A stretch of DNA of 64,000 nucleotides from Candidatus Phaeomarinobacter ectocarpi (GTDB taxonomy: Bacteria > Pseudomonadota > Alphaproteobacteria > CGMCC-115125): contig NZ_HG966617.1 in assembly GCF_000689395.1 (NCBI RefSeq), positions 2,478,221 to 2,542,220 of the forward strand. The letters are read 5' to 3'. A program made the position numbers and the translations under genes. Below, one piece after another: positions 30,232 to 43,545 of this stretch (within the stretch, counting starts at the first letter, position 1; each line of letters starts with the position of its first letter). Below the pieces are notes generated by a model. That model searched no databases and was not told the DNA's origin. It saw only the letters and a program-made list of their open reading frames with translations.

Positions 30232-30429
30232 TCACAGCTTGTTGCGGGTTGGCTCATCGCTGGGTGGCCCATCGCTGGGTGGAAAGTCGTCGTCATCATC
30301 AAACAGGATGCGCTCCGCCGCGCCATCAAGATCATCAAACTGGCCGCTCTTGAGTGCCCACAAGAATGCAGCAAGCCCAAGCAATCCCAGGAACAACGCA
30401 GCCGGGATGAGCATCGCCAGTACGTCCAT
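30232..30429 (-). CDS. ccoS: cbb3-type cytochrome oxidase assembly protein CcoS
   Basis: A 65-residue single-helix protein of the CcoS/FixS family, needed for cofactor (heme/copper) insertion into the oxidase. The helix ALFLGLLGLAAFLWALKSGQFDDLDGAAERILFDDD is diagnostic: the GQFDDLDGPA-like sequence right after the membrane segment is the family signature. Its ATG shares one base with the ccoI stop (TGATG). It is the last gene of the ccoNOQPGHIS array. Confidence 0.93.
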   Translation of the reverse strand: MDVLAMLIPAALFLGLLGLAAFLWALKSGQFDDLDGAAERILFDDDDDFPPSDGPPSDEPTRNKL

Positions 30430-32675
30430 CAGTGCGCATCCTCTTTTACGGTTTCAGGCAGCCCCATCTTGCCCCACCGTAGCCGAATGGCGTTGGCCGT
30501 GACCAGAATGGACGACGATGACATGGCGATGGCCGCAATCAGCGGCGTCACATAACCCGCCACGGCAATCGGCACCGCCACCACATTATATGCGAGCGAC
30601 AGCCCGAAATTCTCCAGCACCAGCCGCTGACTGCCCCGGGCCACATCAAGCGCCACGGTGACAGGCGCCAGTTCCTGCCCCTGGAACACCAGATCCGCCG
30701 CCGCCTGGGAGACATCCGCCCCGGACGCAGGCGACATGGACACATGGGCCGCCGCAAGTGCCGGTGCATCATTGAGACCATCGCCCACCATCAGCACCTT
30801 CGCGCCCTGGCCCGCCAGCTCTTCAAGCCGGGCGATCTTGTCCTGTGGCAGCAGGCCACCGGCAAAGTTAGAAACGCCAGCCTCTCGCGCCACGGCCTCC
30901 ACCGTCGCCGGACGGTCACCGGACAAAAGCACAATCTTCATGCCGCGATCAGCAGCCCACTCAATCACCGCTGATGCGTCCTCACGCAACCCATCCAGAA
31001 AACCAAACCGCACCGGTGCGGCATCCCCGCAGCGGAACCAGATCTCAGGTCCGGTCGCGTCATTCTCAGTTGCATCGATACCCCCAACGAATGCCGCACT
31101 GCCAAGGCGTGCCGCCTGCCCGTCAACAGTTCCCATAAGCCCCTGACCGGGATGTTCACTCACGTCATCACCTTGGGGGCCGACCCCCGCCGCCTGCGCA
31201 AGCGCGCGACTTAGGGGATGCGTGCTCGCCCGGGCAAGTGTTGCAGCGCGTTCAAGCGCCGTTCGGTCAACATCCGCATCATCCAGCGCAAGGCGCCCGT
31301 GGGTCAGCGTGCCGGTCTTGTCGAAAACGAGTGTGTCCACCTCCGCCAGCCGCTCCAGGGCATCCGAAGACTTGAGCAAGACACCCCGCGACAACAAGCG
31401 CCCGCTTGCCACCACATGCACCACCGGCACCGCAAGCCCCAGCGCACAGGGGCACGTGATGATCAGCACCGCGATGGCAATCTTGAGCGAACCGTCCCAG
31501 GCCAGACCCCCCAGCAGCATCCAGCCAATGAAGGTCGCCGCCGCAAGAATGTGGACAGCAGGCGCATACACCCGCGCCGCCCTGTCAGCAATCCGCACAA
31601 AGGTGTCGCGCCCCTGCTCGGCTGCTTCCATCAGCCGAACGATCTCGCTCAGCAGCGTCGCTTCATCGCCCTTGGTCACGCGCACGCGCAACGGCCCGGA
31701 CATGTTCAACGTCCCGGCAAATACATCTGCCCCCGGTGCCACAGCTACCGGTGCCGTTTCCCCGGTGATGAGGCTCGTGTCCAGATCAGACCGGCCTTCT
31801 TCCACAACCCCGTCAGCGGCAATGCGCTGGCCTGTCGCAACGGCCACAACCATGCCCGGCTTCAAGGCTTCCACCGGCATCGCCCGCGCCACGCCATCGT
31901 CATCTATGACAGTCGCTGCATCCGCCCGCAGCGCCAGAAGGTTTTGTGCAGCCAGCGCCGCACGACCGCGCATCTTCATGTCCAGCGTGCGCCCGATCAG
32001 CAGGAAGAACAGCAACATGATCGAGGCATCAAAATAGACGTGCTTTGCCCCGGCAATGGTCTCAGCCAGGCTCATACCCGCCGCCAGCAACACAGCCAGC
32101 GAAATCGGTACATCCATGTTCATGGCACCAACCCGCAATGCACTGACAGCAGAGCGGAAGAACGGCCGCCCCGCATAGGCAATGGCCGGCATGGCAATCA
32201 GCCCTGATATCCAGTGGAACATGTCCCGCGTGGCCGCTTCCATCCCGCCGGAATGCCCGGCCCACACGGAAACAGACAGTAACATCACATTGGCTGCCGC
32301 AAACCCGGCCACACCCACACAGGTGATGAGTTCCTTTTCATCGCGCGCCTGCTGGGTTTCCAGGGTCTTGGGATCATAAGGCCGCGCGCCATAGCCTGCG
32401 CCAACAATGGCGGACACAATCTCGCGCGGGCGCACCATCGCCTGCTCGAACACCACCGTCAGCCGTTTGGTGGACAGGTTGAGCCGCCCGTTGGCAACAC
32501 CTTCAAGCCCGTTGACCGCCCGCTCCACGCGCTTGACGCAGCCACCACAGTGAACGCCGTCCACAACGAAATTGACGACAGAACTGCCATCATCCAGCGC
32601 CCGCACATAGGTATCAGGAATGTCAGGAATATCCTGACCAATATCAGCGCCACTGGAGATCGAGGCATCAGCCAT
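30429..32675 (-). CDS. ccoI: Copper-translocating P-type ATPase CcoI/FixI
   Basis: A 748-residue P1B-ATPase that exports copper for cbb3 oxidase assembly. An N-terminal metal-binding domain carries VHCGGCVKRVE, the sixth-helix motif is ITCPCALGLAVP, the phosphorylation site DKTGTLTHG and the hinge MVGDGLNDAPALA. Eight membrane helices are expected. The first half has the FixI pattern rather than that of a detoxifying CopA. ATG 32675 is preceded by GGAGG and overlaps the ccoH stop by eight bases; an upstream TTG reading is less likely. Confidence 0.95.
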   Translation of the reverse strand: MADASISSGADIGQDIPDIPDTYVRALDDGSSVVNFVVDGVHCGGCVKRVERAVNGLEGVANGRLNLSTKRLTVVFEQAMVRPREIVSAIVGAGYGARPYDPKTLETQQARDEKELITCVGVAGFAAANVMLLSVSVWAGHSGGMEAATRDMFHWISGLIAMPAIAYAGRPFFRSAVSALRVGAMNMDVPISLAVLLAAGMSLAETIAGAKHVYFDASIMLLFFLLIGRTLDMKMRGRAALAAQNLLALRADAATVIDDDGVARAMPVEALKPGMVVAVATGQRIAADGVVEEGRSDLDTSLITGETAPVAVAPGADVFAGTLNMSGPLRVRVTKGDEATLLSEIVRLMEAAEQGRDTFVRIADRAARVYAPAVHILAAATFIGWMLLGGLAWDGSLKIAIAVLIITCPCALGLAVPVVHVVASGRLLSRGVLLKSSDALERLAEVDTLVFDKTGTLTHGRLALDDADVDRTALERAATLARASTHPLSRALAQAAGVGPQGDDVSEHPGQGLMGTVDGQAARLGSAAFVGGIDATENDATGPEIWFRCGDAAPVRFGFLDGLREDASAVIEWAADRGMKIVLLSGDRPATVEAVAREAGVSNFAGGLLPQDKIARLEELAGQGAKVLMVGDGLNDAPALAAAHVSMSPASGADVSQAAADLVFQGQELAPVTVALDVARGSQRLVLENFGLSLAYNVVAVPIAVAGYVTPLIAAIAMSSSSILVTANAIRLRWGKMGLPETVKEDAH

Positions 32676-33210
32676 CGCTGTCGCGGCCTCCAGCCCAGAT
32701 GCGTTTTTCAAGATAGTAAGGCGCTGCCTCTTCGCGCTCGAGCAGCAACCGCATTTCCCAGTGACCGCGCGCAGGCAACGATGCCTGTGCGCTGTAGATA
32801 CCCGGCGCGGTTTCAGTCAGCGTTGCCACAACATCCTCACCGCGCACCACGGGGCGCCAGAATGTCAGGTCCCCTGCAAGGCCGGTCAGCGCTGCACCTT
32901 CTGCGTTCAGCACCTGGACGGCCACGGTCGCGTCTGCACCCTCAGGCGTCGCCGCAAAAGTTTCGTCAAACGACACCCGCCACCCCAGCGCCCGCTGCTC
33001 GGCGGCGGCTTCCAGGCGCTCATTGTAATCGCGCCCCGTCTGATAGGCGTTCTGGGTTTCTATGCCGGAAAAGGTCGAGAGCGCGATATAGGTCATGACG
33101 CCGTTGACGGCGAAGATGACACCGAAGAACCCCACAAGCGCTGCAAGCGTGTGATACCCGGTCCATCCGCGCTTTGATTTCCGGTCTTTGATCGTCGCTG
33201 CCTCGGACAT
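32668..33210 (-). CDS. ccoH: FixH/CcoH family protein
   Basis: A 180-residue single-span membrane protein of the FixH family, required for stable cbb3 oxidase assembly. A basic start (DRKSKRGWTGYHTLAALVGFFGVIFAVNGVMTYIALSTF) leads through one helix, and the periplasmic domain holds ETQNAYQTGRDYNERLEAAAEQRALGW, the conserved FixH region, followed by a beta-rich domain. Its ATG lies four bases after the ccoG stop, with AGGAG overlapping the end of ccoG. Confidence 0.92.
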   Translation of the reverse strand: MSEAATIKDRKSKRGWTGYHTLAALVGFFGVIFAVNGVMTYIALSTFSGIETQNAYQTGRDYNERLEAAAEQRALGWRVSFDETFAATPEGADATVAVQVLNAEGAALTGLAGDLTFWRPVVRGEDVVATLTETAPGIYSAQASLPARGHWEMRLLLEREEAAPYYLEKRIWAGGRDSDG

Positions 33211-33214
33211 GTCT

Positions 33215-34768
33215 CTAACGCTCCTCAGGACCACGGAATGTGGTCGGGTTCTTCACCTGCAACCCACTGGCAGTGTCGGTGATGACAAAGGCAATGTCAG
33301 CCTTGCCGTCTTCAAGCAGCGCTACAGCGTCATTCGGCAGGGACAGGAACAGCCGCACATTGCGTAGCCGGTCTGACTGAACGGCAACCGGCAACGTCTC
33401 CAGGCCACTATCGGTGAGGGTTGAAATCCGGACGTCCTCAAGCCCTTCGACACTCACGGTGAACACCCGCTCTTCCGTCACCTTGTTGAGGATCTTCACT
33501 TCATATCCGTTGCGCACAGAGCCATCAGACAGGGTGACAAACAGCGGATTGCGGTCCTTGAGCACATTGACGTCCAGCGGCGACCGGGTGATCAGCACCG
33601 ACAGCATGATGGCCCCGACAACCACAATCAGCGCCGCATAGAGCAGCGTGCGCGGCCGCAGCAGACGCACCCGCATGGGCAGGTCTTTGGTCCGTCGGTC
33701 CATGTTGTCGAAATTGTCATAGGTGATCAGCCCGCGCGGGCGATCAATCTTGTCCATGATGTCGTTGCAGGCATCAATGCACAGCGCACACTGGATGCAC
33801 TCAAGCTGATCGCCATCGCGGATATCAATGCCCATGGGGCACGCCACAACACACTGCTTGCAGTCGATGCAGTCACCACGGCCCTCCCAGGTGTCACCCT
33901 TGCGGTGCGCCCCACGCGGGTCGCCACGGTCAGCGCGATAGCTAACAAGGAAGGACTGGTCATCCACCAGCGCACCCTGAATACGCGGCCATGGGCACAT
34001 ATAGGTGCACACCTGCTCGCGCGCGAGACCACCCAGCAAATACGTCGTCGACGCAAACACACCGATAAACAGATAGGCCACCATCGGCGCATCCAGCGTC
34101 AGCAGGTCACGCGCCAGAGTGGGAGCATCTGCAAAATAGAAAACCCATGCTCCACCCGTCGCCACCGCAATCAGTAACCACACGGAATGCTTGGAGACTT
34201 TCTTGATAAACTTGCTCAACGACATGGAGGTCTTGTCGAGCTTCAGCCGCTTGTTTCGGTCGCCCTCGATCATCCGCTCAACCATGATGAACAGATCAGT
34301 CCACACGGTCTGCGGGCAGGCATAGCCACACCACACCCGGCCAAACAGCGCTGTGGCCAAAAACAGAGCCAGCGAGGCCAGTACCAAGAGGCCGGTCACG
34401 AAATAGATTTCCTGCGGCCAGATTTCGATGAAAAAGAAGTAGAACCGCCGCCCGGGCATATCCAGCAACACCGCCTGGTCAGGCGCGTTGGGACCACGGT
34501 CCCAGCGAATCCACGGCAGGATGTAGTAGATGCCAAGGGTGATCGTCATCATCACCCATTTGATATTGCGAAAGGTGCCATGCACCAGCTTGGGGTGAAT
34601 GGCCTGACGGCTGACATAAAGGGAGCGGGAGGCTGCGGAGTTCACCGCCTCAACATCATGCCGGTCGACGTTTTCATGTGCCTTCGCAGACGAAACGCCC
34701 GTCACATTTGCCGCAGCTTCGCGCGCAAGCGTTGCAAGACCGCCGCCTGGTTCATTCGATGCTGACAT
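33215..34768 (-). CDS. ccoG: Cytochrome oxidase accessory protein CcoG/FixG
   Basis: A 517-residue membrane ferredoxin of the FixG/RdxA type, thought to reduce copper during CuB-centre assembly. Several helices (WVMMTITLGIYYILPWIRWD and others) precede a loop with two Cys-rich clusters, GDCIDCKQCVVACPMGIDIR and LECIQCALCIDACNDIMDK, each a 4Fe-4S ligand set, plus WCGYACPQTVWTDLF. The C-terminal 130 residues are a periplasmic Ig-like domain. It follows ccoP by 106 bases, with no obvious terminator, and starts the assembly part of the array. Confidence 0.95.
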   Translation of the reverse strand: MSASNEPGGGLATLAREAAANVTGVSSAKAHENVDRHDVEAVNSAASRSLYVSRQAIHPKLVHGTFRNIKWVMMTITLGIYYILPWIRWDRGPNAPDQAVLLDMPGRRFYFFFIEIWPQEIYFVTGLLVLASLALFLATALFGRVWCGYACPQTVWTDLFIMVERMIEGDRNKRLKLDKTSMSLSKFIKKVSKHSVWLLIAVATGGAWVFYFADAPTLARDLLTLDAPMVAYLFIGVFASTTYLLGGLAREQVCTYMCPWPRIQGALVDDQSFLVSYRADRGDPRGAHRKGDTWEGRGDCIDCKQCVVACPMGIDIRDGDQLECIQCALCIDACNDIMDKIDRPRGLITYDNFDNMDRRTKDLPMRVRLLRPRTLLYAALIVVVGAIMLSVLITRSPLDVNVLKDRNPLFVTLSDGSVRNGYEVKILNKVTEERVFTVSVEGLEDVRISTLTDSGLETLPVAVQSDRLRNVRLFLSLPNDAVALLEDGKADIAFVITDTASGLQVKNPTTFRGPEER

Positions 34769-34874
34769 TCACGCCCCTCCTAGCCGGGACAAAGATCGTC
34801 CGTCATCCATAGGGGCACATGTGCCGGGCCTCCCCACCCGGTCATCCGCCTACAGACAGTCCAAATGCAACGCT

Positions 34875-35774
34875 CTATTCACCGCCACCAAGCGAGTGAA
34901 CATAAAGCGCCAGCTTCGCAATGGTGGCCTCGTCCAGCCGCCCCTGCCAAGCGGGCATGACGCCGCGCCGGCTGTGGGCAATTGACGCATAGATGCTTTC
35001 CTCGTCACCGCCATAAAGCCAGATCGCGTCTGTCAGGTTGGGCGAACCCAGTTCCTGGTTTCCCACGCCGCCTTCCATATGACATGTCACACACTGGGCC
35101 TCGAACAGTTCCTGGCCGCGCAGAGCCGCCTCTGCATCAACGTCCCTGCCGGACAGCTGCAGCACATACTGGGTCGTGTCGCTGACTTCAGCCTGGGTGA
35201 AGATGCCGTCATCCAGGAACTTCGGCATGTCATTGAGGCGGGTGTTGTCATCCGCTTCCCAGCGAATGCCGTGGCGCAAGGTCACGCGGATGTCTTCAAG
35301 CGTACCGCCCCACAACCATGCATCATCATTGAGGTTGGGGTAGCCCTTGAAACCCTGCGCACCACGCCCGTGGCAGGCAGCGCAATTGTCGCCAAAGGCA
35401 CTCTCACCACCGGCCAGCGCCACGGAATGAAGCTCCGGATTGCCCGGCACGTCGCTCAGCTCACCGGCTAGAATTTGATCGTCAAAGACCCGCAAGGCAG
35501 CTTGTGACTGTTCCACCTGCTCCGTCACAAGCGCGCGCTGGGAATAGCCCAGAATGCCCTGCGTGTAGCTGGAGGCAAGCGGCCATGCCGGGTAGAGCAC
35601 CCAGTAGGCGACCGCCCACAGGATGCAGGCATAGAAACTGTAGAGCCACCACTTGGGCAGCGGGTTGTCCAGCTCCCGGATGCCATCCCACTCATGGTCC
35701 GTGGTTTCGACACCCGTGTAGTCATCTACAAAGCGGCCGTCATCCGAGTTCTTGTTCTCACTGTTGTCACTCAT
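34875..35774 (-). CDS. ccoP: cbb3 oxidase diheme subunit CcoP/FixP
   Basis: A 299-residue membrane-anchored diheme cytochrome c, the electron-entry subunit. One or two N-terminal helices (WLYSFYACILWAVAYWVLYP) anchor it; two heme c sites are visible, NCAACHGRGAQG (about residue 134) and QCVTCHMEGGVG (about 228), with Met ligands in the following loops. Its ATG overlaps the ccoQ stop (ATGA), so it is coupled to ccoQ. Confidence 0.96.
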   Translation of the reverse strand: MSDNSENKNSDDGRFVDDYTGVETTDHEWDGIRELDNPLPKWWLYSFYACILWAVAYWVLYPAWPLASSYTQGILGYSQRALVTEQVEQSQAALRVFDDQILAGELSDVPGNPELHSVALAGGESAFGDNCAACHGRGAQGFKGYPNLNDDAWLWGGTLEDIRVTLRHGIRWEADDNTRLNDMPKFLDDGIFTQAEVSDTTQYVLQLSGRDVDAEAALRGQELFEAQCVTCHMEGGVGNQELGSPNLTDAIWLYGGDEESIYASIAHSRRGVMPAWQGRLDEATIAKLALYVHSLGGGE

Positions 35775-35962
35775 TTGGACTGACCCCCGTTTGCCGAATT
35801 GGTAGCTGGCACATCGTCATCGTCGAGCGGCGCCATGGCCGCATGGTCGAAGCGCTGCTTGTTGCCGGGCCAAAGCGCGTAAGTGATGACGCCGATGAAG
35901 CCGACAAACAGCATCACCAGGCCAATGGCCCCTCCGATACCTCTGATTTCGTCATATCCCAT
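35771..35962 (-). CDS. ccoQ: cbb3 oxidase small subunit CcoQ/FixQ
   Basis: A 63-residue single-helix subunit. IGLVMLFVGFIGVITYALWPGNKQRFDHAA contains the family WPGNKQRFD-like signature just after the helix; the rest is an acidic, polar tail. It lies 11 bases after the ccoO stop and overlaps ccoP. It stabilises the CcoP subunit interaction in other organisms. Confidence 0.93.
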   Translation of the reverse strand: MGYDEIRGIGGAIGLVMLFVGFIGVITYALWPGNKQRFDHAAMAPLDDDDVPATNSANGGQSK

Positions 35963-35973
35963 GGTGTCAGCTC

Positions 35974-36708
35974 CTAGCGCATGTTCTCGCCCTCAGCCTG
36001 ATAGGCTGAGAAGTCGACAAGGGTGCCAAGCATCTGCATGTAGGCGATCAAGGCATCGAGTTCGGAGATCATGTCCGGGTTGCCGTCAAAGTCGCGGATC
36101 TGCGCCTTGGGATAGCGCGCCAGCAGCGCGTCGTAGTCATCCCCGAACGGGTCCACCTGCGCCTTGATGTCAGACTCGGCGTTTTCAACCATCTCGTCCG
36201 TATACGGCACACCAATCATCTGGTTGGTCTTGAGATGGTCCTTAAAGCCCTTGTAGTTGAGCGGTGTTGTCGCCAGGAACGGATAGTTCGGCATGATGCT
36301 CTCAGGCACCACCGCACGCGGGTCCGCCATGTGCAGCACGTGCCAGTCATCCGAGTACTTGCCGCCAAGCCGAGCCAGGTCCGGCCCGGTCCGTTTGGAC
36401 CCCCACTGGAACGGGTGGTCGTACATGCTTTCCGCCGCCAGCGAGTAGTGGCCATAGCGCTCCACTTCATCGCGCAGCGAGCGGATCATCTGGCTGTGAC
36501 AGTTGTAGCAACCCTCACGGATGTAGATGTTGCGTCCTGCAAGCTCCAGCGGTGAGTAAGGCCGCATGCCCTCCACTTCCTCAATGGTTGAGGAGAGGAA
36601 GAACAACGGTGCGATCTGCACGATGCCGCCGATCGAGACCACCACCAGAATGGCGACCGTCAGGATCAGGGAGTTGCGTTCAAGGGTCGCGTGACTGAAC
36701 AAGGACAT
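35974..36708 (-). CDS. ccoO: cbb3 oxidase monoheme subunit CcoO/FixO
   Basis: A 244-residue membrane-anchored cytochrome c. One N-terminal helix ([25 protein letters not shown]) is followed by the heme c motif [13 protein letters not shown] and the conserved [36 protein letters not shown] region, ending with the FixO-type [12 protein letters not shown]. It is encoded 14 bases after ccoN. Confidence 0.96.
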
Positions 36709-36722
36709 GTTTCTCGCCCTCC

Positions 36723-38426
36723 CTATTGTGCCGGTGCCGCAACCAGCTCGCCCTGTGGGGCGCGGCCGGCTGTTGCATCAAGGGGTTCGCTTGCGCGGAT
36801 TTCACCCTTGGCGGTTTTGTACAGATTGTAAGCCATGATCAGCGAACCGACGACGAACAGTGCGCCGCCCAGGGCTCGGATCACATAGAACGGATGCATC
36901 GCTTCCACGGTCTCAACGAAGGAGTACTCAAGGAAGCCCAGCTCATCATAGGCCCGCCACATAAGCCCCTGCAGAATGCCGGAGACCCACATGGAGGTGA
37001 TGTAGAGCACGATACCCAGCGTCGCGACCCAGAAGTGCCACTCCACCAGCGCCAGCGAGTAAAGCCGCTGACGGCGCCACACCCACGGGGTGAGACAGTA
37101 AAGCGCCCCGAAGCTCACAAAGCCGACCCAACCCAGCGCACCGGAATGCACGTGACCGATGGTCCAGTCCGTGTAGTGCGACAGGCCGTTCACAGCCTTG
37201 ATGCTCATCAGCGGACCTTCAAAGGTGCTCATGCCGTAAAAGGCGACAGACACCACCAGCATCCGGATGACAGGGTCGGTTCTCAGCCGGTCCCAGGCGC
37301 CCGCAAGGGTCATCAGCCCGTTGATCATGCCACCCCATGAGGGCATCCACAGCATGATCGAGAACGTCGCCCCCAGGGTCTGTGCCCAATCGGGCAGCGC
37401 TGTGAAGTGCAAGTGATGCGGACCCGCCCAGATGTAGAGGAAGATCAGCGCCCAGAAGTGGATGATCGACAGGCGGTAGGAATAGACCGGCCGCTCGGCG
37501 CGCTTGGGAATGAAGTAGTACATCAGCCCCAGGAAGCCGGCAGTCAGGAAGAAGCCCACCGCGTTATGGCCGTACCACCACTGGGTCATGGCGTCCTGAA
37601 CGCCGGACATCAGGATGTAGGATTTGTCGCCCGTGAAGGAGACCGGCACCGCCAGGTTGTTGACGATGTGCAGCATCGCAATGGTGACGATGAAAGCCAG
37701 GTAAAACCAGTTGGCCACATAGATATGCGGCTCACGGCGGCGCCACAGGGTGCCGAGGAACACCAGCAGATACACGACCCACACAACGGTGAGCCACAGG
37801 TCGATGTACCATTCAGGCTCTGCATATTCTTTTGACTGCGTAACGCCGAACACATAGCCCGTCGCCGCCAGCAGAATGAACAGCTGATAGCCCCAGAACA
37901 CGAACCACGGCGCAATGTCGCCCGCCAGCCGCGCCTTGCAGGTGCGCTGCACCACATAAAACGACGTCGCGATGAGGATGTTGCCGCCAAACGCAAAAAT
38001 CACAGCCGATGTATGCACCGGCCGCAGGCGTCCAAAGTTGAGCTCCGCAATACCGGTCAGCAAATCCGGATAAGCCAGCTGCACGGCAATGACGAGACCG
38101 ACAACAAAGCCGACCACACCCCAGAAGGTGGAGGCAATGACACCCCAGCGAATGACAGCATCATTGTACTGCACGCCGTCGGGCGCCCGGGCGGTCGGCC
38201 CACGCTGCAGAAAATCAAAGTGCCGGTCGCCGATCCACATGACCGCCAACAGGCAGAACAGTGTGATGAGACCGCCATGCAGCATCATCGGGCCACTGGA
38301 CGCCCCGGCGATAACAAAAATGCCCAGAAAAGCACCTGCGATGAAGAGCGCGATCGCGCCCCACCCCACTGCCGTCATTCGACCATCATTGGCGATGGGA
38401 GGTTCTGGCGTATGTGTTTGCGTCAT
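36723..38426 (-). CDS. ccoN: cbb3 oxidase catalytic subunit CcoN/FixN
   Basis: A 567-residue twelve-helix heme-copper oxidase of class C, the high-affinity terminal oxidase catalytic subunit. Heme and CuB ligands are visible in context: the His in [19 protein letters not shown], the [27 protein letters not shown] region (His-240-type CuB ligand with the cross-linked Tyr one helix on), [15 protein letters not shown] and [20 protein letters not shown]. This is a full-length, typical protein. It is the first gene of the array, behind an FNR/FixK box at 38522-38535, so it is probably induced at low oxygen. Confidence 0.97.
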
Positions 38427-39736: not shown

Positions 39737-40120
39737 CTAGTGGCCACCTAGTCCGACAAAGGTAAGCACCCCACCAGCCACAAGTGCCAACAGTCCCCAT
39801 ATCCGGATGAAATTGCCGCTCATCATGGGGTTGAGCAGGCGAATGAAGGACGACCCGACAGCAATGAAGATCAACCCTTCAATGAGTGTCGCAGCGGCCA
39901 GCCCGGTGACAACCATCTCAAGCGGCGTATCAATCTTGTGATGGGTAACCAGCAGCACGGCACCAATGAAAAAAACCAGCACGCCGCAGACAAAAGAAAG
40001 CCCTGCACTTTCGCGCAGATCCGTCAGCATGGCCCGGCTACGGTCGGGGGTTGCAACAAGGGCGATGCCCGCAGCAAGCATGTAGAGCCCAAATCCAAGG
40101 GCAATGGCTTCAGTCATCAT
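39737..40120 (-). CDS. Small four-helix membrane protein of unknown function
   Basis: A 127-residue hydrophobic protein with four predicted helices (ALGFGLYMLAAGIALVATPD; GLSFVCGVLVFFIGAVLLVT; LEMVVTGLAAATLIEGLIFIAVG; IWGLLALVAGGVLTFVGLGG). I cannot name its family. The conserved-looking TPDRSRAMLTDLRES loop lies between helices 1 and 2. A second ATG three bases later is equally possible. It is followed closely by the threonine-aldolase-like gene. Confidence 0.6.
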   Translation of the reverse strand: MMTEAIALGFGLYMLAAGIALVATPDRSRAMLTDLRESAGLSFVCGVLVFFIGAVLLVTHHKIDTPLEMVVTGLAAATLIEGLIFIAVGSSFIRLLNPMMSGNFIRIWGLLALVAGGVLTFVGLGGH

Positions 40121-40205: not shown

Positions 40206-40670
40206 CTATGCGGCGTATCGCCTGGCGATCAGATGATCGAGCGACAGCACACCAGGACCACGAATGATGAGATACAACATGCCTGTGGCCCAAAGCAGGT
40301 GCAGGTTCCATGCACCGGGATAGACAAAGGTCTGAATGACCGCCGTCATCACCAGCAGGCCCAGCGCACCAAATCGTGTGCCAAGCCCGAGGATCAGCAT
40401 GATCGGGAACACATGCTCCGCAATGGTGCCCATGACCGCAGCCCAGTCGGACGGAATGAGCGGCAACGCATACTCATACTCGAACAGGAAATAGGTCGAG
40501 TCCTTGAGCGCAAAGCCATCCACCTTGAGCCGTGCCGATGTCCAGAAGACACCAGCCACGGCAATCCGTGCGGCAACGGCAATGATCCATTCAGGGAGGG
40601 ACGACATCAGCGCAATCACGCGCTGAACAAGTCCCGCGAGGCCATTGAGAGAATGTGTTGCTGCAGTCAT
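40206..40670 (-). CDS. DoxX family membrane protein of the bufferin-type operon
   Basis: A 154-residue protein with four predicted helices of the DoxX type ([25 protein letters not shown], then [52 protein letters not shown]). The ATG overlaps the stop of the DUF2063 gene (ATGA), placing it in the same operon. DoxX proteins are common companions of DUF692/DUF2282 gene pairs; a role in membrane redox chemistry or in handling the product is plausible but unproven. An in-frame start at 40751 lies inside the upstream gene and is rejected. Confidence 0.85.
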
Positions 40671-41476
40671 GACGTCACCTTTGATGTTTGATCCGGCAGC
40701 ACAAAACTTCCGGCATTGAGCAGTTCGGCAAAGACGATCTGTGGGTCGCATTCAGGCTCTTCTTCAAACGCTGCAATCAGCGCCCGCCCCAGGGTGGCGC
40801 CACCCTGAACAGCACACAGAAACGCGAACGCGCCCGGCGATACCCGGCGCACTTCGACCTGGGCGTGAGGCCGCACCACAAAGATGCGTTCGTTGCGATC
40901 GTCTTCGGCAATGGACAGCACGCCGTCGTGGTCAGGCTGGTTTGCCTGCCAGATGCGCGAAATCGGATAAGGCGACATCAAAAGCTGATGCGCCGGCGCA
41001 AGCTCAAGCACCAGCCGGTCAAGCGCCTGATCGCCCAGCGCCTCCACAAATGCCTGGAGGTCCTGCGCGGTGAGTACGTCAGCATCTTGGCCGTGATAGA
41101 CCTTGTGCCAGGCATGCTCCAGCCGCGCGATATCCGGCAGATAGGGCACGGAGCGGGCGGGCTCAAACCCAACAAGGAACCCGGCAAAGTCAGGGGCAAA
41201 CCCTATGAGGGAGGCAGCATCCGGCATGGAGCGCTCGAAATAGGCCTGTGCCATCGCACGGAAAAACTCTTCTCCCACCAGCCGCTGGCAAACCGGATAA
41301 AGCGCCGCCAGCGCATCTGTCAGGCTGGACGCCACATTGTTGCGATAGACATCAAGCCGCGCTCGGTGAGGCAGTGGTTCATTGCCGATGGCCGCAAGAT
41401 CCAGCATGACCTGGCTGTTGGCCGGGTCGCGCAAGGCTGAGGCAAAATTGGTCTGCAATTCAGCGAGCCGGGACAT
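40667..41476 (-). CDS. DUF2063 protein, MNIO partner (BufC-like)
   Basis: A 269-residue protein. The N-terminal helical domain, with [53 protein letters not shown] and [30 protein letters not shown], is the DUF2063 signature. In other systems this protein is the RRE-like partner that brings the precursor to the DUF692 oxidase. The C-terminal half matches the same family. It overlaps the DUF692 gene by 17 bases and the DoxX gene by four. Its identity is from the family and the operon setting. Confidence 0.88.
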
Positions 41477-42449
41477 GACCCACCTCCTTTTTTGAAATCT
41501 GTTTCAGCTTGCCGCGCGCTGTTGCGACTTCGGTCAGCAACACATCAAGCGCAGGCACATCCTGGTCCCACTCAACAAGCGTTGGTCGTGGGCCGGCGGC
41601 AGCGAGGAAATCGTCATACAGCGTCCAGACATCCCTAGAGGGTGCCGAGCCATGGTCGTCAATCTTGAGTGTGACGCCGCTGCGGTCATCATCGGAGTGT
41701 CCACCCAGATGAACCTCGCCAACCGCCGCAACATCAAACTGATCAAGATAGTCACGTGGCGAGGTTTGAAGGTTGTGGGCGCTCACCACCACATTGTTGA
41801 TGTCGAGCAGCAACCCGCATCCCGTGCGTCGCGCCATCGCGGATAGAAACTCCGTCTCCGGAATATCACTTTCTTCAAACGCCAGATAATTGGACGGATT
41901 CTCAATGAGAATCTGGCGGCCCAGCGTCTCCTGCGTCTGGTCAACGTGGCGGCACACAATGTCCAGCGCCTCGGACGTCAGCGTCACCGGCAGAAGATCA
42001 TTGAAATAGGTGCCACCATTTTCGCACCACGCGAGATGCTCGGAAACGAGCGCCGGCTTATAGCGATCCACAAGCGCACGCAGATGAGCCAGATGATCAC
42101 GGTCCAAGGGTCCCGCTCCACCAATCGACAATCCAATGCCGTGGATCGAAAGCGCAAACCGCTCGCGGATGGCGGCGAGGTACCGGTGTGGCGCTCCGCC
42201 GTCTCCAAAATAGTTTTCCGCATGCACCTCAAAGAAGTCCGCAGCACTGCCTTGCGAAAAGGCCTCAGACAGAATCTGGGAATAGTGCTGCGGCTTCAAA
42301 GAGGTACCCGCAGACGCAAGCTCAAGCTCTGGCGAGCCCAAAGCAGCCTGCCCAGATGACCGCACAGATGTGGTGGCCGCGAGGGGGGTGCGACCTGCAG
42401 CAGGGGTATCGGCTGCAAACATCTCAGGGGAATGGGTCATCCGGGACAT
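41460..42449 (-). CDS. DUF692 / MNIO multinuclear iron-dependent oxidase (BufB-like)
   Basis: A 329-residue TIM-barrel oxidase that in characterised relatives uses two or three iron atoms to modify cysteines of a precursor peptide. Candidate iron ligands are all present: FFEVHAENYFG, ALSIHGIGLSIGG, VSEHLAW, LIENPSNY, GLLLDINNVVVSAHN, GEVHLGGHS and TLVEWD. The first about 50 residues are an Ala/Ser/Thr/Pro-rich extension not seen in the usual 280-residue family member; an internal start would remove it, but no clear ribosome site decides. The gene starts 49 bases after the precursor gene stop. Confidence 0.92.
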   Translation of the reverse strand: MSRMTHSPEMFAADTPAAGRTPLAATTSVRSSGQAALGSPELELASAGTSLKPQHYSQILSEAFSQGSAADFFEVHAENYFGDGGAPHRYLAAIRERFALSIHGIGLSIGGAGPLDRDHLAHLRALVDRYKPALVSEHLAWCENGGTYFNDLLPVTLTSEALDIVCRHVDQTQETLGRQILIENPSNYLAFEESDIPETEFLSAMARRTGCGLLLDINNVVVSAHNLQTSPRDYLDQFDVAAVGEVHLGGHSDDDRSGVTLKIDDHGSAPSRDVWTLYDDFLAAAGPRPTLVEWDQDVPALDVLLTEVATARGKLKQISKKEVGHVPAR

Positions 42450-42498
42450 GCTTTGTACTCGTTGAACTGGAGCGATGCGTTGTTTGTCGTGTCAGACG

Positions 42499-42795
42499 TT
42501 ACGCAGGAACGTTGCTGTCGCTGTCTTCAAGCGAGCCATTGCCGAACGGCGTTTCGATGGATGTGCAGGTGCCCGCAGGAACAAGCTTCCAGGCATTGGA
42601 CTGGTAATCGATCGTGGATGTGCCCTGGCATGAGGTGCCTGGGCCAGCTGCACAGTCATTCTCACCGGCAAGGGCAACGCCGTAGCACTTTTCCATGTCA
42701 GCGGCAGCAGCAGGTGTGGCGGTCAGTGCGCCCATTGTCAGGGCGGCAGACAGGGCGCCGGCAGCGGCGAATGCGGTTTTGGATGCGGTCTTCAT
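42499..42795 (-). CDS. DUF2282 bufferin-type RiPP precursor (BufA-like)
   Basis: A 98-residue precursor. Residues 1-32 are a signal peptide ([27 protein letters not shown]), so the product is exported. The mature part has four cysteines, at about 37, 48, 56 and 77, in [22 protein letters not shown] and VPAGTC, the DUF2282 pattern. In characterised bufferins the MNIO turns Cys into thiooxazole groups and the exported product binds copper. ATG 42795 with AGGAG ahead is chosen; the reading from 42861 adds a leader without a signal peptide and is rejected. The C-terminal tail ([12 protein letters not shown]) is acidic. Confidence 0.9.
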
Positions 42796-42855: not shown

Positions 42856-43217
42856 CCCCACAACCTCGGAAACCAGCGCCCAAAAAGGAACTCACGAAGC
42901 CGTCGCGCGGCCTCAAACACCTGTGATGACCTAGTGATGACCCGGTGAAGGGCCAGTGAAGAGCCGCAACAGCTCAAAAAGACAGGCCACACCGCGGTCG
43001 CGCGCGGGCGGTCTGTCGCCATGAAGGATTCGGGGAAAAGGGTACGCAAGAGGCCCGCAGGCCGGACAAACGCGGCGGGGGACACCGCCGACCCGCGAGC
43101 ACCCTTGCGACACTTCGACAGTGCCAAACCCGCAGAAAATTGGGAAATCACGACCGATGTGAGGTCGGTAAAACGACTGTGAGGCCGCGTGAACGGGGTC
43201 ATTAACCGTGTTTACGC

Positions 43218-43257: not shown

Positions 43258-43545
43258 CATGAAAAATTAACCTTTGGCACTGCGTGAAAAAGGTCACCAT
43301 TCCTGACCTTGATTCAACAGGCCCCTCTCTGGCACTATCCCCCGGCTTCGCAAAAGCCTGTCGTGACGTATTCATGCAGGCACAGCAAAGCGTGGGCAAC
43401 GAGGGCGGCCGTCTCAAATGATCGGCAGTCTGACCGAGGACCTCCAAAGAGAGCGCCCCAGTCAGGTTCACCCTCAAGCCCTCACGGCAAAGGCTTTCGT
43501 AGTCGACACCCTCAGGTGGGCATATAGCGCTCACGTAAATCCAAA

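Follow-up and report, generated by a model that had tools for sequence, protein, structure and literature searches.

A probable Buf1-type bufferin operon in "Candidatus Phaeomarinobacter ectocarpi", with a candidate structured element upstream

The window analyzed here (a 64,000-nt stretch of contig NZ_HG966617.1 from "Candidatus Phaeomarinobacter ectocarpi") very probably carries a complete Buf1-type bufferin operon, the products of which would modify the central Cys of a putatively Sec-exported, copper-binding peptide. A preliminary description had proposed a bufferin-type operon, and this assignment was backed by family profiles, gene order, Cys spacing, MNIO metal-site residues, the fold of the partner protein and purifying selection. 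The operon, from the genus of "Candidatus Phaeomarinobacter", is ordinary for its class; it adds a genus of algae-associated marine bacteria to the known range of this copper-buffering peptide system. A whole-genome search returned a single MNIO gene and a single DUF2282 gene, and one precursor with one maturase per genome would provide a clean knock-out system.

All four genes of the set (precursor, MNIO, DUF2063 partner and DoxX) were confirmed on the minus strand and were complete; their coordinates, and the precursor Cys at positions 37, 48, 56 and 77, agreed with those given earlier (Table 1).

Table 1. Features of the bufferin locus and its surroundings; positions are those of the window.
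Feature	Positions	Strand	Basis
bufA: Buf1/DUF2282 precursor, 98 aa	42499-42795	minus	Pfam DUF2282, Cys spacing, ribosome-binding site
bufB: MNIO bufferin maturase, 329 aa	41460-42449	minus	NF050167 MNIO_BufB, 3BWW homologue, conserved H/E/D/N set
bufC: DUF2063 + RRE-type partner protein, 269 aa	40667-41476	minus	Pfam DUF2063, predicted fold
doxX: DoxX-family membrane protein, 154 aa	40206-40670	minus	Pfam DoxX, ATGA overlap with bufC stop
Conserved non-coding block TCACAGNTGTTTGA...GACGGCTTCGTGAGTTCC just upstream of bufA	42887-42926	minus	largely invariant in four congeners
Candidate structured RNA, roughly 71 nt	43042-43112	minus (buf strand)	fold and covariation in four congeners
Perfect palindrome AAGGTCA-N7-TGACCTT, gltB/bufA divergent intergenic region	43290-43310		kept in 4/4 congeners
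DUF2065-like small membrane protein, between doxX and ltaE	39737-40120	minus	20.5 bits, below Pfam cut-off
cbb3 oxidase set: ccoN (by position), FixO, FixP, FixG, HMA P-type ATPase	30429-38426	minus	downstream of buf

Gene calls and family assignment

The ribosome-binding site of bufA is AAGAGGAGA. The bufA and bufB genes lie 49 nt apart, bufB and bufC share 17 nt, and the bufC-doxX overlap is 4 nt (ATGA). The length of 154 aa for DoxX holds if the start is the ATGA at the bufC stop; an alternative start at 40751 (181 aa) falls within bufC.

Placement of the 98-residue protein in DUF2282 had been named beforehand as a refuting test, and BufA matched the Pfam profile above its gathering cut-off (PF10048; 9.9e-26, 89.9 bits, cut-off 22.4). 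The Cys were spaced 11-8-21, as in most relatives, the remaining relatives showing 11-7-21, 11-9-21 or a final spacing of 22, and a sequence motif of the precursor was likewise found across many relatives. Judged by eye, the N-terminus resembled a typical Sec-type signal sequence. The tail of the precursor had been called different, a claim that did not hold: ETPFGNGSL...VPA matches a pattern frequent in alphaproteobacterial Buf1 precursors, and the tail was therefore ruled out as a distinctive feature.

BufB matched Pfam MbnB_TglH_ChrH (2.9e-97, above the gathering cut-off) and NCBIfam NF050167 MNIO_BufB (358.8 bits, curated cut-off 310), and aligned to the solved MNIO 3BWW (5.5e-39). The likely iron ligands had been described as intact, and 14 H/E/D/N positions (H55, E74, E78, H103, H138, D151, E183, N184, D216, N219, H247, D264, H266 and E293) were at least 95% conserved across 64 relatives, in agreement with that statement. 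By motif rather than by direct alignment to HvfB, residues N184, D264 and H266 appear to be the counterparts of HvfB N175, D242 and H244, substitution of which abolishes activity (PMC13419390).

For BufC, the match to Pfam DUF2063 was 8e-23 (above the gathering cut-off). The best PDB folds for its predicted 269-aa model (pLDDT 90) were TglI in TglHI (8hi7) and NGO1945 (3dee), both matched across most of the length of the model. TglI (TglHI complex) and Neisseria NGO1945 have been described as MNIO partner proteins (PMC12452194), and the DUF2063 match together with the predicted fold identifies BufC as a PME type 1 partner (a DUF2063 domain fused to an RRE-type domain). DoxX matched Pfam DoxX (2.3e-15, above the gathering cut-off).

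Buf1 is defined by a DUF2282 precursor with four conserved Cys and by the core genes MNIO, DUF2063 and DoxX (PMC12452194). Buf2 bufferins are alike in their MNIO, DUF2063 and DoxX partners and in their Cys peptide, which is Sec-exported in Buf2 and putatively so here, but have 6 or 12 Cys, whereas BufA has four and, at 18.6 bits, was below the cut-off of 60 for the Buf2 precursor model BufA2 (NF050166). Oxazolin/hvf and fontiphorin (EGKCG) clusters likewise share a related MNIO, a DUF2063/RRE partner, DoxX and thiooxazole chemistry; unlike these, BufA is without EGKCG repeats, and BufB, BufC and DoxX all scored below the cut-offs of the NCBIfam Hvf models.

Distribution and proposed maturation

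For the comparison of MNIO homologues, 59 genomes were searched, 28 of which gave a match, and 35 loci from named genome contigs were added. The closest named relative was a MAG labelled Candidatus Phaeomarinobacter (72% identity). A search for the same four-gene order in related genomes, as had been suggested earlier, recovered A-B-C-DoxX in the large majority of about 60 loci, spanning Alpha-, Beta- and Gammaproteobacteria. The exceptions include L006, L016, L024 and L065, where no precursor was recognised in the available DNA, and L059, where the precursor and DoxX were separate from the MNIO. DUF2282 was present in 65 of 190 genomes sampled from the class, and the bufferin system is therefore common there.

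The Buf1 operon of Caulobacter vibrioides (CCNA_03363-03366) was alike in families, gene order, four Cys, a signal sequence (putative in BufA here) and an MNIO over the BufB cut-off. In contrast to that operon, the present one lies in a genome with no detected NrsF anti-sigma gene, is preceded by a long intergenic region that contains a structured element specific to the genus, and encodes a BufB with a longer, loosely constrained N-terminus.

In characterised Buf1 bufferins the central Cys are converted to thiooxazoles, the outer pair is joined in a disulphide, and Sec exports the product, which binds copper (PMC12452194, PMC13097082). By analogy with these relatives, we infer for the operon described here thiooxazole formation, peptide export, binding of copper and induction by it. 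BufA would be synthesised with a Sec signal sequence and, in the cytoplasm, a BufB-BufC complex would oxidise Cys48 and Cys56 to 5-thiooxazoles, with BufC (the DUF2063/RRE partner) presenting the substrate to the MNIO. Modified BufA would leave via Sec, Cys37 and Cys77 would form a disulphide, and the exported product would bind periplasmic copper, which would lower copper toxicity; DoxX is the usual fourth gene of such operons. Mass shifts at all four Cys had been anticipated, an expectation that needs correction, as the published Buf1 work has only the central two modified and the outer two in a disulphide (PMC12452194); in BufA, Cys48 and Cys56 alone are accordingly expected to be modified, and Cys37 and Cys77 to be joined by a disulphide.

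Control region upstream of bufA

Copper induces the homologous cluster of Caulobacter, which is controlled by SigF/NrsF, and mutation of sigF causes sensitivity to copper (PMC8224329). NrsF (PF06532) had no match in the whole genome, while the Caulobacter control genome did match. SigF/NrsF control as in Caulobacter was therefore rejected: that copper switch does not apply as such, copper induction by that route is unsupported, and control of another kind is likely. The motif GTAACC-N16-CGAA, which we take to be the Caulobacter SigF consensus, was absent from the upstream regions of the genus.

Roughly 1 kb lies between bufA and the divergent gltB, with several conserved blocks. The block closest to bufA in Table 1 (42887-42926) occurs once in the genome and may be the buf promoter/operator. 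The palindrome is the sole perfect copy in the genome, where weaker copies numbered 26 vs. 8 for a control pattern; with one perfect copy only, it was rejected as a regulon marker, and it is likely a regulator site for gltB, buf or both.

The most conserved segment of the intergenic region was the candidate structured RNA, about 246 nt upstream of bufA. Its predicted fold is a long stem carrying a C-rich loop and a GCGUUUGUCC-type asymmetric bulge (MFE -45.3; z = -4.4 on the minus strand vs. -0.4 on the plus strand), and RNAalifold gave a nearly identical structure. Across the four congeners, 100% of the pair cells held standard pairs, and ten pairs varied, 3 of them compensatory (both sides changed). 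Each of the four congener genomes had one copy. No copy was found in about 285 other genomes of the class (with stricter filters, by which weak matches could be missed, and with the taxonomic order of the source sampled by the four congener genomes only), and a model search found none in the buf loci of other genera. Rfam (4227 families) gave no match at gathering and none overlapping the element at E up to 10, and neither the element nor its region was matched in viral contigs or plasmids.

Several simpler roles for the element were rejected. It is not a terminator of an upstream gene, as the gene upstream, gltB, is transcribed divergently and none of the congeners has a proper U-tract directly after the hairpin; nor is it a repeat, being single-copy in each genome; nor a general bufferin leader, given the result of the model search in other genera. 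Some buf upstream regions of other genera do fold well, but in several cases both strands fold, the behavior expected of a terminator or palindrome. A long-range interaction between the C-rich loop and G-runs close to bufA, traced by eye, was also discarded, as the positions differ among congeners.

That the hairpin is a protein-binding inverted repeat or a chance fold, and no RNA, is doubtful but carries appreciable weight. The hairpin is known from only four sequences, of which two are closely related; no variation occurs at 18 of its 28 pairs; and 58 of 500 shuffles reached its compensatory-pair count, which is not decisive by itself, so the element stays a candidate. Set against this, the fold is strong on the minus strand only, the wobble pairs fit that sense only, and controls with the partner slid along paired far worse (39-51%). 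A further reading, offered tentatively and rather unlikely, is that the element is a new RNA (a cis-acting leader or a small RNA) that would control the bufferin operon in this genus instead of SigF/NrsF, possibly via copper sensing or pairing of the C-rich loop. If true, this would place a bufferin operon under the control of an RNA, a case for which the literature searched offered no precedent. A poorly conserved stretch separates the element from the block at 42887-42926; if that block is the buf promoter, the hairpin would therefore be a separate RNA and not a leader.

Role of the product and selection on the operon

Responses to gold, silver, cadmium or chromate occur in some bufferin clusters, and copper may therefore not be the sole ligand. 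It is unlikely that the present cluster answers chiefly to a different metal or to oxidative stress and that copper binding comes second. In favor of that reading, the name gold-induced genes was given to homologous clusters, fusions with MerC are known, and a link to oxidative stress has been drawn for a DoxX homologue (PMC12452194, PMC8224329); against it, characterised Buf1 products bind copper and help growth in copper (PMC12452194).

The cbb3 oxidase set had been reported as present in the window with no direct link to the operon. No functional link was shown, and to that extent the report stands; it understated the arrangement, as ccoN lies further along the same strand and the co-directional order buf-ltaE-ccoN is preserved in 4/4 congeners. 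This synteny, together with the ccoO, ccoP, ccoG and CcoI-like HMA P-type ATPase genes in the window, would suit a modified peptide whose main role is to store periplasmic copper, or to supply it, for the neighboring cbb3 assembly rather than to buffer stress. Such a role is considered highly unlikely, since the synteny was seen in this genus only, no cco genes lay near buf in other genera (within limited flanks), and ltaE and usually a DUF2065-like gene intervene. The DUF2065-like gene was found in genomes G002 and G003 and was not detected in G001. In Pseudovibrio stylochi, an ltaE-like gene (L034:7372-8424) also directly follows the buf operon.

To return to the Buf1 reading of the operon, all four genes are under purifying selection. 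Among the four congeners dN/dS was 0.01-0.07 for bufA, about 0.11 for bufB, 0.07-0.13 for bufC and 0.06-0.17 for doxX, values that are rough because several dS exceeded 1. The MNIO extension had been presented as a feature setting this copy apart. An N-terminal extension of BufB (approximately residues 1-46) is indeed real in the genus, but it is variable in length, weakly constrained (dN/dS 0.36-0.77, with indels, vs. the whole-gene value above) and without a conserved domain, and this loose constraint ruled it out as distinctive. Apart from that extension, no point was found in favor of a decaying or unmodified relic, a reading made extremely improbable by the purifying selection on the four genes, the conserved catalytic residues and the reading frames, which were intact for all four genes in the four congeners.
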